From the IMG/VR virus record IMGVR_UViG_3300035698_002392, positions 1 to 37,660 of that record: DNA of 37,660 bases; one strand, given 5' to 3'. The stretch comes from a virus. A program made the translations under genes and the position numbers. The notes under the pieces were generated by a model. The model saw only the letters and a list, made by a program, of their open reading frames with translations. It was not told the origin of the DNA and ran no database searches. Positions 1-7,415 of the stretch are shown piece after piece. Position 1 is the stretch's first letter. Each line of letters opens with the position of its first letter.

Positions 1-93
1 CAAGGATATTCGTATGAGGTATGGCTCTTCACGACTAAAACCAATTATCAAATACTAAAAACGAAGGATGATTTTGAAAAATGGGTGATTTAG
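1..93 (+). CDS. C-terminal end of a probable homing endonuclease (partial)
   Basis: An open frame enters from the left edge and ends with TAG at 91-93, giving about 30 residues (begins QGYSYEVWLFTT, ends FEKWVI). It overlaps the intein-bearing terL half by 13 nt in another frame. No catalytic motif lies in this stub. The assignment rests on position: the same place in uvsX and uvsW of this window is filled by a free-standing endonuclease gene between the two intein halves. It could be any small upstream gene, so the function is inference. Confidence 0.5.
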   Translation, partial: QGYSYEVWLFTTKTNYQILKTKDDFEKWVI

Positions 94-416
94 CTCCAAA
101 CATAAAAAACTATAAAGTATTGACGCCGGATGGCTATAAGGATTTTTCCGGAGTATCTTTTATGGGAGATAAGGCAGTATGGAAGCTGACTTTTGAACAA
201 GGTGTAATATTGGAATGCACAGAAGATCATAAATTATATCAAAACTTGATTGACTATAAAGAGGCAAAGGATTTTGATATAGGAGATGTGGTATTAAGTT
301 CAGAGGGACATCTTGCACTTATTGCACGAGAATATATTGGTGTTCGGGCTGTGTTTGATTTGGTAGAAGTCGAAGATGGCCACCGATATTATGCTAATAC
401 AGTATTGGCATCAAAC
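81..416 (+). other. C-intein of TerL (atypical, N-side split)
   Basis: The 112-residue intein piece contains everything after the first strands, including the region VLTPDGYKDFSG, block B and block F. The missing N-intein must therefore be very short, like the known atypically split TerL inteins. The penultimate residue is Ser instead of the usual His; the terminal residue is Asn112 and the +1 extein residue is Cys113. Confidence 0.85.
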
Positions 417-1181
417 TGTGAGTTTATTATTCACGAAGAAACTTTGATTAGCGGGTTGAAGCTAGTTGATATGGAAGGTGTTACGCCAGTAAGAGTGGAT
501 GGTCAGGTGCGATGGTATAAAGAACCATCAAAAGGTCATGTATATCTTGTTGGATTGGACCCCGCTATGGGAACAGGCGGCGACAACGCAGCCATCCAAA
601 TATATGAACTACCTGAAATGATTCAATGCGGTGAATGGATGCATAATAAGTCCGATATTCCAACACAAGTGAGAGTAATGAAATCTATTTGTGCCCACCT
701 AACCGATGTTACAGGGACAAAAAATGATGTATATTATTCTGTTGAAAATAACTCAATCGGAGAAGCTGCATTAATCAATATTGCCGAACTTGGTGAGGAA
801 AATATCGATGGTATATTCCTGTCAGAACCGAAGAAACTTGGTAATGTTAGGAAGTTCCGCAAAGGATTTAACACGACTGAGAACTCTAAGATTGCGGCTT
901 GCGCTAAGTTTAAAGTAATGATTGAATCAGAACGAATGATTGTTTATAGCAAACCACTTATATCTGAAATGAAAACGTTTGTTGCAAAGGGACGGTCATA
1001 TTCATCAAAGGAAGGTGAAAACGACGACTTGGTAATGGCTTCATTGCTTGTAGTGCGTATGGCAACGGTATTAAAAGACTATAATCCCACGTTAGAAAAG
1101 CATATGCGGGACCATAATGAGCAAATGGTGGCACCATTGCCGTTTTTCTCATCTATATCTGGAATGAGTGGCTGGAGATAA
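81..1181 (+). CDS. terL: Terminase large subunit, C-terminal half, fused to C-intein (split terL)
   Basis: This encodes the nuclease half of the packaging terminase (T4 gp17) behind a C-intein. Residues 1-112 are an intein Hint fold lacking its first strand: block B is CTEDH (residues 46-50) and the block F region ends LASN before Cys113 (+1). Residues 113-366 are the gp17 RNase H-like nuclease domain, with candidate metal ligands Asp160 (LVGLDPAMGTGGDN), Glu222 (SVENNS) and Asp315/316 (ENDDLVMAS), spaced much like T4 D401/E458/D542. The ATPase half and the N-intein must lie upstream of the window. The start at 81 is the first in-frame ATG after a stop; AAGGA at 64-68 is a rather distant Shine-Dalgarno. 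Headful cutting would need trans-splicing to the N half. Confidence 0.9.
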   Translation: MGDLAPNIKNYKVLTPDGYKDFSGVSFMGDKAVWKLTFEQGVILECTEDHKLYQNLIDYKEAKDFDIGDVVLSSEGHLALIAREYIGVRAVFDLVEVEDGHRYYANTVLASNCEFIIHEETLISGLKLVDMEGVTPVRVDGQVRWYKEPSKGHVYLVGLDPAMGTGGDNAAIQIYELPEMIQCGEWMHNKSDIPTQVRVMKSICAHLTDVTGTKNDVYYSVENNSIGEAALINIAELGEENIDGIFLSEPKKLGNVRKFRKGFNTTENSKIAACAKFKVMIESERMIVYSKPLISEMKTFVAKGRSYSSKEGENDDLVMASLLVVRMATVLKDYNPTLEKHMRDHNEQMVAPLPFFSSISGMSGWR

Positions 1182-4741: not shown

Positions 4742-4981
4742 ATGCCCCGTCCCTTCGATGTGAGCAAATTTCGAAAAGACTTAACTAAATCTATTGAGGG
4801 AATCAGCTTTGGTTTCCACGATCCTACCGATTGGATTTCAACAGGAAACTATCTACTAAACTATCGTATTAGTGGTGATTTCAATAAAGGTATCCCGCTT
4901 GGTAAAGTAACCATTCTTGCCGGTGAATCTGGGTGCTTGCCTAAAACCGCATCAATAAAAATCAGATATAAGCCGAAATAA
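4742..4981 (+). CDS. uvsX: UvsX recombinase N-terminal fragment fused to ultra-short N-intein
   Basis: Residues 1-64 are the N-terminus of the RecA-like recombinase UvsX, ending in the first half of the Walker A motif (ILAGESG). Cys65 opens an N-intein of only 15 residues (CLPKTASIKIRYKPK) before TAA. The other half is encoded at 6162-7415; joining would restore GESG+SGKS, a complete P-loop. The start follows TAGGAGAATAAT, the same 12-mer that precedes the second half. Without trans-splicing this fragment has no ATPase site. The N-intein is strongly basic, which fits pairing with the acidic C-intein. Confidence 0.92.
   Translation: MPRPFDVSKFRKDLTKSIEGISFGFHDPTDWISTGNYLLNYRISGDFNKGIPLGKVTILAGESGCLPKTASIKIRYKPK
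4934..4978 (+). other. N-intein of UvsX, 15 residues
   Basis: It starts at Cys65, inside the P-loop, and has block A character (CLPKTASIKI). Published ultra-short N-inteins (VidaL type) are about 16 residues, so this is at the lower limit known to me. Confidence 0.88.
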
Positions 4982-4989
4982 ATGTATCT

Positions 4990-5030
4990 TACCAGTCTTC
5001 TATGCTAAATACTATAAAAGGAGACTGGTA
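4990..5030 (+). promoter_or_regulatory. RBS-occluding hairpin with internal late promoter (I-TevI-like control)
   Basis: Positions 4990-5001 pair with 5019-5030 (12 bp, one G-U). The 3' arm contains the Shine-Dalgarno AGGAG (5019-5023) of the endonuclease at 5033. A late-promoter box GCTAAATA (5004-5011) sits in the loop; a transcript starting about 6 nt later (near 5017) would lack the 5' arm and leave the Shine-Dalgarno free. Read-through RNA from uvsX would be occluded. Confidence 0.75.
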
Positions 5031-5032
5031 TA

Positions 5033-6160
5033 ATGATAACCAAACAAACAGAGCGATTTTTAAAAAGAAAGCACGTAAGGGATATTTTATTAAGTAAGGT
5101 TTTAACTTCATGTCATTATGAACGACTGAATGATTTCTTTGATCATTATGGAACCCCGAAAAAAGTAGAAAATATGTTAGCCACTATTGCATGTTTTGTG
5201 TTATATGATTTGAATAATTATAAAGGGAGATATAGGCGGCTCAAAGGGATTTCAGGCACTTCAATATATACGCAAGTCTTGCGTTATGGCAAAGCTAATT
5301 TTAAAGAAATATATAAAACGCAAACAACCCGGAAGAAAGCAGGGTTTAAAAATTGCTCAGAATACTGGATTAATCTTGGATATACTGAAGAAGCCGCCAA
5401 GCAGGAAGTAATTAAAATACAGAAAGCCCGAAATATGTTGTCAGTTGAGAAAACAAAAGGAACTAGTGAATATACATGTAGGTCAGTAGCTTTTTGGCTA
5501 AAACAAGGTTATACTGAGCTTGAAGCTAAAGCAGAGGTTTCAAATATTCAAACAACCAACGGATTGATATATTATACAAAGAAATATGGCGAAGATATAG
5601 GGCGTGTAAAATACGAAGCTAGAATTAAACAATGGCAACAAACTCTTTCAAATAAATCAAAAGAAGATAACGCTCTCTTTAATTTAAAAAAATCACATAG
5701 TATAAAAGGGGGCATGGCCCGTGGTTTATCATATGAGGAAGCTTTAAATAAATACAATGATTATTGTGAAAAAATGAAAAGTAAACCAACGCAACGGTTT
5801 TCAAAGATTTCCCAGCATTTATTTGATGCTATAACGAAGTATGTTCAGGGAAATATGTATTATGAAACGAGAAATTATGAATATTTAATTGATGGCTTGC
5901 GTGTTGATTTCTTTCATAAAGATTCAGGGACGGTTATTGAATTTCATGGTGATTACTTTCATCGTAATCCATTAATGTATGAAGCAGATATGAAGTCATT
6001 CGGGTATACGTCCAAAGAGAAATGGGACTCGGATTTTATCCGGGAAAATAGAATACGAGATTGCGAACTAGTAAAAAAATTAGTTATTATTTGGGAATCA
6101 GAATACCGATCAACCCCTGATATAATTATTAAAAAATGCGTAACTGAAATAGGAGAATAA
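5033..6160 (+). CDS. EDxHD (Vsr-like) homing endonuclease in the uvsX gap
   Basis: A 375-residue free-standing endonuclease lying between the split halves of uvsX. The C-terminal domain (about 255-365) has the EDxHD/Vsr-like signature: Asp292 (GLRVDFF), then Glu303, His305, Asp307 (IEFHGDYFH), and a conserved tail with WDSDF, NRIRDCEL and IIWESEY. Two imperfect repeats, around 108-130 (SEYWINLGYTEEAA) and 151-173 (VAFWLKQGYTELEA), with a weaker third near 225-245, probably form a DNA-recognition region. Expected role: cut intein-free uvsX alleles so that the whole insert is copied. AGGAG lies 9 nt upstream but inside the control hairpin at 4990-5030. Its last codons (IGE, stop) encode the Shine-Dalgarno of the second uvsX half. 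Confidence 0.85.
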   Translation: MITKQTERFLKRKHVRDILLSKVLTSCHYERLNDFFDHYGTPKKVENMLATIACFVLYDLNNYKGRYRRLKGISGTSIYTQVLRYGKANFKEIYKTQTTRKKAGFKNCSEYWINLGYTEEAAKQEVIKIQKARNMLSVEKTKGTSEYTCRSVAFWLKQGYTELEAKAEVSNIQTTNGLIYYTKKYGEDIGRVKYEARIKQWQQTLSNKSKEDNALFNLKKSHSIKGGMARGLSYEEALNKYNDYCEKMKSKPTQRFSKISQHLFDAITKYVQGNMYYETRNYEYLIDGLRVDFFHKDSGTVIEFHGDYFHRNPLMYEADMKSFGYTSKEKWDSDFIRENRIRDCELVKKLVIIWESEYRSTPDIIIKKCVTEIGE

Positions 6161-6161
6161 T

Positions 6162-6530
6162 ATGTTTACTGAAAAAACAGTATCAGTTGAAGAATTAGAA
6201 CAGCTGTATAAGTCAAATAGTTATGATATTGAGATTGATACACCGGACGGTTATCAATCAATAGTCAGCTGGTTTGATAAGGGCGTTATGGGGATGGTTA
6301 AAATTGGAACTGAAAATCATCAGACTGAGTGTGCTGAAAACCATTTAGTTCAGCTTGAAAGCGGTAAATGGTTACTTGCGTCTGAATTAAGCTATGGTGA
6401 TGTGATTTTGACTACTTCAGGCCCCGAGAAAATTATCTTAGTATCCACAATTGATGATGCTGAATGTTTTGATTTTGAGGTCAATCATGCTAATCATCGA
6501 TATTGGGGAGATGGCATTTCCAGTCATAAT
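6162..6530 (+). other. C-intein of UvsX, 123 residues
   Basis: It contains almost the entire Hint fold, ending HN before Ser+1. Its N-terminal 30 residues are acidic and would complement the basic 15-residue N-intein. Confidence 0.88.
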
Positions 6531-7415
6531 TCTGGTAAATCATTTATCGCATCGGGTAACGTAGTAAAAAATGCACAAGATCAAGGCATCTATGTTGTCC
6601 TTATTGACAGCGAAAACGCACTTGATGAATCTTGGCTACACGCACTAAACGTAGATACAAGTGAAGATAAACTACTACGTTTGTCAATGAGTAAAGTAGA
6701 CGATGTAGCAAAAACTATCGCATCGTTTATGAAAGATTATAAAGAAATGGATGAAGCAGAACGTCCGAAGATTCTATTTGTTATTGATTCTTTAGGTGCA
6801 TTGCTTACTGACATTCAGATTGACCAGTTTACTGCTGGTAATATGAAAGGTGACTTTGGACACAAACCACGTGCATTAAAGTCATTGGTTATGAACTGTG
6901 TTAATATGTTCGGTAACTACAATGTCGGTCTAGTGGCTACAAACCACACATATGCATCACAGGATATGTTTGATCCAGATGATAAAATCAGTGGCGGTTC
7001 AGGTCCAATCTATGCGGCATCTATTGTTATCGCTATGAAAAAGCTGAAGTTGAAAACTGATGCTGATGGCGTAAAGACTTCAAAGGTTCACGGTATTCGT
7101 GCTAAGTGTAAGATTATGAAAACACGATACAACAAACCTTTTGAGGATGCAGAACTTCAAATCCCATACGAAACAGGCATGGACCCGTATTCGGGTATGT
7201 TGGATATGTTTGAGGAAAAGGGTATTCTTGTTAAGCAAGGAAATCGCCTTAAATATGAAACCAAAGCTGGTGAAGAAATCATTGAGTTCCGTAAAAACTG
7301 GTCTAACGATAAACTTCAAATCGTTATGAACGAGTATATGGATACACTTGATAATCCAGAGCCGGTGGTTGAAGAAATCGAACCAGAAGAAGTCGTCGTA
7401 GAAGAAGTTGAATAA
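6162..7415 (+). CDS. uvsX: C-intein fused to UvsX recombinase C-terminal part
   Basis: Residues 1-123 are the C-intein: acidic lead-in (EELEQLY), Hint strands, block B (ECAENH, 56-61), block F (FDFEVNHANHRYWGDG), ending SSHN, with Ser124 as +1 residue. Residues 124-417 continue UvsX from the second half of the P-loop (SGKSFIASG), with Walker B LFVIDSLGALLTD and the DNA-binding core, ending in an acidic Glu/Val tail. The spliced recombinase would be about 358 residues, against 391 in T4. The block B Thr is Ala58 here. AGGAG of 6151-6155 gives the start. Confidence 0.92.
   Translation: MFTEKTVSVEELEQLYKSNSYDIEIDTPDGYQSIVSWFDKGVMGMVKIGTENHQTECAENHLVQLESGKWLLASELSYGDVILTTSGPEKIILVSTIDDAECFDFEVNHANHRYWGDGISSHNSGKSFIASGNVVKNAQDQGIYVVLIDSENALDESWLHALNVDTSEDKLLRLSMSKVDDVAKTIASFMKDYKEMDEAERPKILFVIDSLGALLTDIQIDQFTAGNMKGDFGHKPRALKSLVMNCVNMFGNYNVGLVATNHTYASQDMFDPDDKISGGSGPIYAASIVIAMKKLKLKTDADGVKTSKVHGIRAKCKIMKTRYNKPFEDAELQIPYETGMDPYSGMLDMFEEKGILVKQGNRLKYETKAGEEIIEFRKNWSNDKLQIVMNEYMDTLDNPEPVVEEIEPEEVVVEEVE

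Follow-up and report, generated by a model that had tools for sequence, protein, structure and literature searches.

A predicted hairpin and late promoter ahead of a Vsr-like homing endonuclease in split-intein uvsX cassettes

We analysed a stretch of viral DNA of 37,660 nucleotides (nt) (IMG/VR record IMGVR_UViG_3300035698_002392, positions 1 to 37,660; hereafter the window), in which a split intein and the gene of a Vsr-like endonuclease are inserted in the Walker-A codons of uvsX and would together form a mobile cassette. Our main conclusion, to which we give a probability of about 0.88, is that this cassette carries a cis-acting timing switch, the endonuclease being silent in read-through RNA and turned on from a late promoter. 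In the mechanism that we propose, the read-through uvsX mRNA would have to provide both uvsX halves for protein trans-splicing and no nuclease. A hairpin in the nuclease leader would bury the Shine-Dalgarno (SD) sequence of the nuclease in this RNA (the start codon in some relatives), and the starts of the two uvsX halves (uvsX-N and uvsX-C) would stay open. Late in infection, an RNA polymerase of the gp55 type would initiate at a TAAATA motif in the hairpin loop, producing an RNA that starts 12–25 nt upstream of the start codon; without the 5′ arm, this RNA would leave the SD exposed. The basis for this switch consists of the anatomy of the cassette, predicted folding, conservation, co-variation of the arms, the position of the motif and the loss of the module together with the nuclease; from these we infer a late 5′ end at the predicted +1 and repression of translation from the read-through RNA.

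The original prediction had placed a hairpin over the ribosome-binding site (RBS) of the endonuclease gene with a late promoter in its loop, and both elements lie exactly where it put them. The stem joins 4990–5001 to 5019–5030 through 12 pairs, including one G-U, and closes a loop of 17 nt; its 3′ arm contains the AGGAG SD (5019–5023) of the endonuclease, whose ATG is at 5033, and the loop contains GCTAAATA at 5004–5011, with an expected +1 at 5017. This hairpin is the predicted minimum free energy structure of the leader (−17.2 kcal/mol versus −6.7 ± 2.3 for shuffles, z = −4.6), and its energy was matched by none of 200 shuffled sequences. The predicted cost of opening the RBS is 16.4 kcal/mol in the read-through RNA (6.8 ± 2.1 when the upstream part is shuffled, 0/200) and 3.0 kcal/mol in the predicted late RNA, which starts at 5017 and begins with AAAGGAGACTGGTATAATG. 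A terminator function of the stem was ruled out, a U-run being absent 3′ of it, and the leader matched no known RNA family in an Rfam search.

Searches by the endonuclease and by the C-intein led to further split-intein uvsX cassettes, and we compared 15 non-redundant uvsX leaders that precede a nuclease (about 47–65 nt) with 10 leaders from cassettes without nuclease. A scan of genome contigs with the window endonuclease yielded no relatives. The endonucleases of the aligned cassettes are 35–54% identical in protein sequence to that of the window. One of the 15 cassettes belongs to Pseudomonas phage PA5oct (L087 2798–5804; MK797984), where the uvsX C-half is annotated as ‘structural protein’ and both the N-half and the nuclease as ‘hypothetical protein’; 11 records of PA5oct-like Pseudomonas jumbo phages were found.

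TAAATA is located between the 5′ arm and the start region in 14 of the 15 nuclease leaders, against 1.83 expected from shuffles (P ~8e-15; the 15 leaders share ancestry and are not independent events, which affects the arm-swap test described below least). It occurs in only one of the 10 leaders without nuclease, inside a nuclease remnant (Fisher p 5e-5). The start region is buried at p ≤ 0.025 in 14/15 nuclease leaders (shuffles of their own upstream part; exception L180), with a median opening cost of 14.6 kcal/mol versus 3.5 in leaders without nuclease (p 6e-5). The predicted late RNAs, with a +1 at −12 to −25 of the start codon, have opening costs of 0.2–5.5 kcal/mol. What the stem buries differs between loci: the SD in the window, PA5oct, L115, L156 and L165, and the start codon in L136, L140 and L176. 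Of the three starts in each transcript, that of the nuclease is the hardest to open at all 15 loci (median 13.2 kcal/mol; uvsX-N 4.4, uvsX-C 2.5; p 6e-5), as expected if early RNA has to yield uvsX but no nuclease.

Because loop lengths vary, a MAFFT alignment of the leaders misplaces the 3′ arms; it was therefore dropped, and co-variation was measured by cross-pairing all arms. In 13 of 15 cases, no 3′ arm pairs better with a 5′ arm than the one from the same leader, and the summed self-pairing energy of −292.9 is lower than the permutation minimum of −233.0 (0/20,000 permutations reach it), indicating that the arms change together. One relative whose nuclease reading frame is broken (L116/L148) has lost both the hairpin and the promoter. 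The module is inherited within the endonuclease family of the uvsX cassettes, with fast turnover of the stem. Outside the main set, the L122 nuclease leader (2745–2825) has a stem over the start (ACAATAGCA/TGCTATTGT, z −5.0) but no TAAATA, and another promoter type may be used there. L123 and L127 have CTATTTATAATAAAG in common at the same place, upstream of related nuclease open reading frames (ORFs). For L126, which encodes another nuclease, an SD-covering stem was seen by eye; the stretch was folded without its 3′ arm, and we claim nothing for this locus.

In T4, late transcription starts six bases past the last A of the promoter motif. The octamer GCTAAATA is present in the window and in L165; the other relatives carry TATAAATA, GATAAATA, CATAAATA or AATAAATA. 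Compared with the T4-type late promoter TATAAATA, the first two bases are GC in the window versus TA, GA, CA or AA in most relatives. TAAATA is not a rare sequence, since the window holds 39 such sites and a shuffled leader contains one with a chance of 0.12 (about 1/8), so that the promoter assignment is weak at the window locus alone and is strong only when the related loci are added. TAAATA is nevertheless a credible late promoter because of its position in the window: of all 4096 hexamers it is the most enriched shortly before gene starts, ranking first at 10–11 nt from the ATG of ORFs of at least 100 amino acids (aa) and preceding eight such ORFs on both strands (next hexamer, three). A gp55 sigma factor was identified in PA5oct (4e-18) as well as in two large relatives. 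In the related jumbo phage CBB, ATAAATA was predicted as a late promoter 5′ of structural genes, and a gp55-like sigma factor is present (PMC5259590). With this positional signature, the arrangement repeated in 14 of 15 cassettes, the co-varying arms, the open uvsX starts and the loss of the module with the endonuclease, the predicted combination of hidden RBS and late promoter is well supported.

Examples of TAAATA/ATG pairs in the window are 11279/11289 (+), 11271/11260 (−), 17767/17778 (+), 17732/17722 (−), 32339/32349 (+) and 20768/20758 (−). This spacing puts the predicted late +1 at the start codon, and late mRNAs of the window phage may therefore be leaderless. Several of the TAAATA sites are paired back to back and would drive divergent genes.

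Several points weigh against the timing switch. In L180 the motif is accompanied by a hairpin that is not significant (z −0.3); L145 folds into a strong hairpin, with TAACTA in the place of TAAATA; and the 5′ arm of L135 does not pair best with its own 3′ arm. No gp55 was found in a relative contig of 78 kb, itself a fragment. The timing of uvsX transcription in the window phage is presumed from T4, and the shuffle P values overstate independence because the 15 leaders share descent.

The 5′ arm has a further property, which raises the main alternative. Positions 4992–5005 (CCAGTCTTCTATGC), overlapping this arm, resemble the uvsX target site read in reverse complement. The 5′ arms share a conserved scaffold, whose consensus (CCAGTTTCTCCTGC) matches the reverse-complemented GESG target codons (CCTGATTCTCCAGC) at 11 of 14 positions, best only in register 0. 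The mean match of the arms to the target is 8.9/14 versus 6.6 for shuffles (z 9.7, 0/200), and seven other elements around the site give z ≤ 1, so that the better-than-chance match is confined to this one element and to this orientation. Outside the TCNCC core, needed by the anti-SD anyway, the match is still in excess (5.8 versus 4.9 of 9, 0/300). The arms are, however, no closer to their own target than to those of other cassettes (p 0.34), so that the likeness may owe much to common descent and to the need for an anti-SD (TCTCC). The pattern is suggestive of a 5′ arm that could be an inverted mimic of the target site, in the fashion of the I-TevI operator, which overlaps a late promoter and resembles the homing site at 15/20 positions (PMC2988022). 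The inverted repeat might then act mainly as DNA, as an endonuclease-bound operator flanking the late promoter, with the RNA hairpin as a by-product. We consider this improbable as the main function: it leaves unexplained why the 3′ arm lies on the SD or start codon, why loci switch between SD and AUG types and why this arm co-varies with the 5′ arm. The operator role and the RNA role of the timing switch may also both hold. A tentative extension, which we regard as somewhat less probable than even, gives the 5′ arm a triple role within about 14 bases: a target-mimicking operator for autorepression, the strand opposing the SD or start codon, and a segment excluded from the late RNA, with a fixed operator to which the SD or start region becomes complementary in evolution. 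If true, this combination of a fixed operator and an evolving SD or start would explain the repeated origin of such locks in homing endonucleases.

Even less probable is that the stem, instead of locking translation, separates uvsX-N from the downstream genes as an RNA processing site of the kind cut by RNase III or E, or as an element that stabilises the mRNA. Processing is known in or near the mRNAs of the T4-type endonucleases segB, segG and Aeh1 mobE (PMC2988022), but it requires neither a 3′ arm on the SD or start codon nor a TAAATA in the loop, yet both are conserved, and cleavage in the loop would release the SD early. A chance origin of hairpin and TAAATA in an AT-rich leader is very hard to maintain despite the 39 TAAATA sites of the window and the presence of one in about 1/8 of shuffled leaders, since 0/200 shuffles fold equally well, 14/15 cassettes repeat the arrangement with different stems and the cassettes without nuclease lack the module.

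The features of the window cassette are given in Table 1. The endonuclease ORF sits between the halves of the split-intein uvsX, and the SD of uvsX-C (AGGAG), within the end of this ORF, is predicted to be unstructured. In a search of viral contigs, GESG and SGKS are contiguous in all uvsX loci with both sides found, outside the window's own group; because these relatives read uninterrupted across the site, the entire block of 1.6 kb must have been inserted. The cassette thus combines two intein halves on separate ORFs, a conserved extein site, a nuclease ORF in between and empty alleles elsewhere, as in fractured genes. The known alleles of the uvsX site are empty, contiguous intein, split intein without nuclease and split intein with nuclease. 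These split inteins are cut very close to the N-terminus (4934–4978 in the window, and relatives), with an N-intein (IntN) of about 15–20 residues (CLPxxAxVxIRxxxK) and a C-intein (IntC) of about 123. The uvsX halves would be joined by trans-splicing, and the cassette would be mobile by homing.

Table 1. Coordinates of the uvsX cassette and of the endonuclease leader in the window.
Feature	Position	Strand	Basis
uvsX N-terminal half with very short N-intein, GESG^CLPKTASIKIRYKPK-stop, IntN 15 aa	4742..4981	+	phrog_97 UvsX-like E 5e-12; intact uvsX reads GESG/SGKS in empty loci
5′ arm of hairpin, TACCAGTCTTCT	4990-5001	+	sequence, predicted fold
Predicted T4-type late promoter in loop, GCTAAATA, predicted +1 5017	5004..5011	+	motif position; identical octamer, same place, in L165
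3′ arm of hairpin, AGGAGACTGGTA, with endonuclease SD AGGAG (5019-5023)	5019-5030	+	sequence, predicted fold
Vsr-like (PD-(D/E)XK superfamily) homing endonuclease, 375 aa, phrog_22677	5033..6160	+	
C-intein (to SHN^S, 6530/6531), then SGKS and uvsX C-terminal half	6162..7415	+	

The original prediction described the endonuclease as unrelated to I-TevI and as lying next to a split intein where I-TevI has an intron; our analyses confirmed both. No Pfam family scored above threshold for the window endonuclease. A profile built from eight endonuclease relatives matched only Vsr structures in the PDB (1odg/1vsr/1cw0), weakly (E ~0.6), and a Foldseek search with the AlphaFold model of the endonuclease also retrieved Vsr (including 1cw0) with a probability of 0.98–0.99 and a template modelling (TM) score of 0.54–0.58 of target. 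Both results point to Vsr and thus to a family other than the GIY-YIG family of I-TevI; D292, E303 and H310 are invariant. An Rfam search found no group I intron at the cassette, which is therefore not, like I-TevI, a GIY-YIG nuclease in a group I intron.

Split inteins flanking the gene of a Vsr-like homing endonuclease were reportedly described as ‘fractured genes’ by Dassa et al. in 2009. In the gp43 cassette of Aeromonas phage Aes508, as here, a split intein interrupts an essential replication gene and a Vsr-like endonuclease ORF lies between its halves; there, however, this ORF overlaps the N-half and leaves no space for such a leader, whereas the module is seen in uvsX cassettes.

In principle the design of the lock is already known: hairpins that sequester the RBS, and that late transcripts escape, are described for I-TevI, I-TevII, I-TevIII, segB, Aeh1 mobE and gene e (PMC2988022, PMC3014915). 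Several unrelated T4-type endonucleases are among these, some of them free-standing. The three T4 I-Tev systems resemble the window in having an early or middle read-through RNA with a buried RBS, a late RNA without the 5′ arm and an endonuclease nested in an early or middle gene (PMC2988022, PMC3014915); they differ from it as GIY-YIG or HNH enzymes of group I introns, where the window has a Vsr-like enzyme in a split-intein cassette. The same calculation applied to the T4 I-TevII leader, as a positive control, gave 14.5 kcal/mol for the read-through RNA, a TAAATA at −24 and 2.6 kcal/mol for the late RNA, in agreement with the uvsX family. Aeh1 mobE, located in the split nrdA, and T4 segB are free-standing endonucleases with an RBS hairpin and a late promoter, as here (PMC2988022, PMC3014915), but belong to the HNH and GIY-YIG families (Aeh1 was compared through review descriptions). 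In T4 gene e (lysozyme), a stem likewise represses long early transcripts, with late promoters in the 5′ strand of the structure (PMC3014915), although this is a lysis gene without mobile element.

As far as the literature searched shows, what is new is that Vsr-like endonucleases in split-intein cassettes use such a lock and that it is maintained family-wide with stem turnover; our search for control of this kind in intein cassettes surfaced only T4 reviews. The early-silent, late-on lock would be a module that is conserved yet evolves fast, here in another nuclease family and another host element. That an unrelated endonuclease shares the design holds; convergence, as originally suggested, is plausible rather than demonstrated, the module being inherited within the uvsX-cassette family. 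The I-TevI hairpin has been argued to protect intron splicing (PMC3014915), a rationale inapplicable here because there is no intron; this speaks for a role in timing or limiting the nuclease, and the uvsX cassettes separate the two rationales for the I-TevI lock. They also offer a natural series at one site, from empty to nuclease-bearing and including cultured PA5oct-like phages, across which the module is present or absent together with the nuclease.

The window phage has a second split-intein cassette, in the gene of the large terminase, terL (window 1–1181; L086 1232–178), with the C-half of the intein joined at N^CEF and another endonuclease between the halves. In the leader of this cassette, a 9-pair stem covers the SD and holds GATAAATA in its loop; the fold is not beyond chance (z −1.6; opening z 0.3), and the cassette was therefore not counted as an independent copy of the lock. 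In a sister phage (L105, L014; contig IMGVR_UViG_3300035034_000053), uvsX is uninterrupted and 81% identical. The terminase endonuclease of the same phage is 99% identical to that of the window phage, and the N-intein sequence just upstream differs, which looks like a recent homing event with a recombination edge inside the intein.
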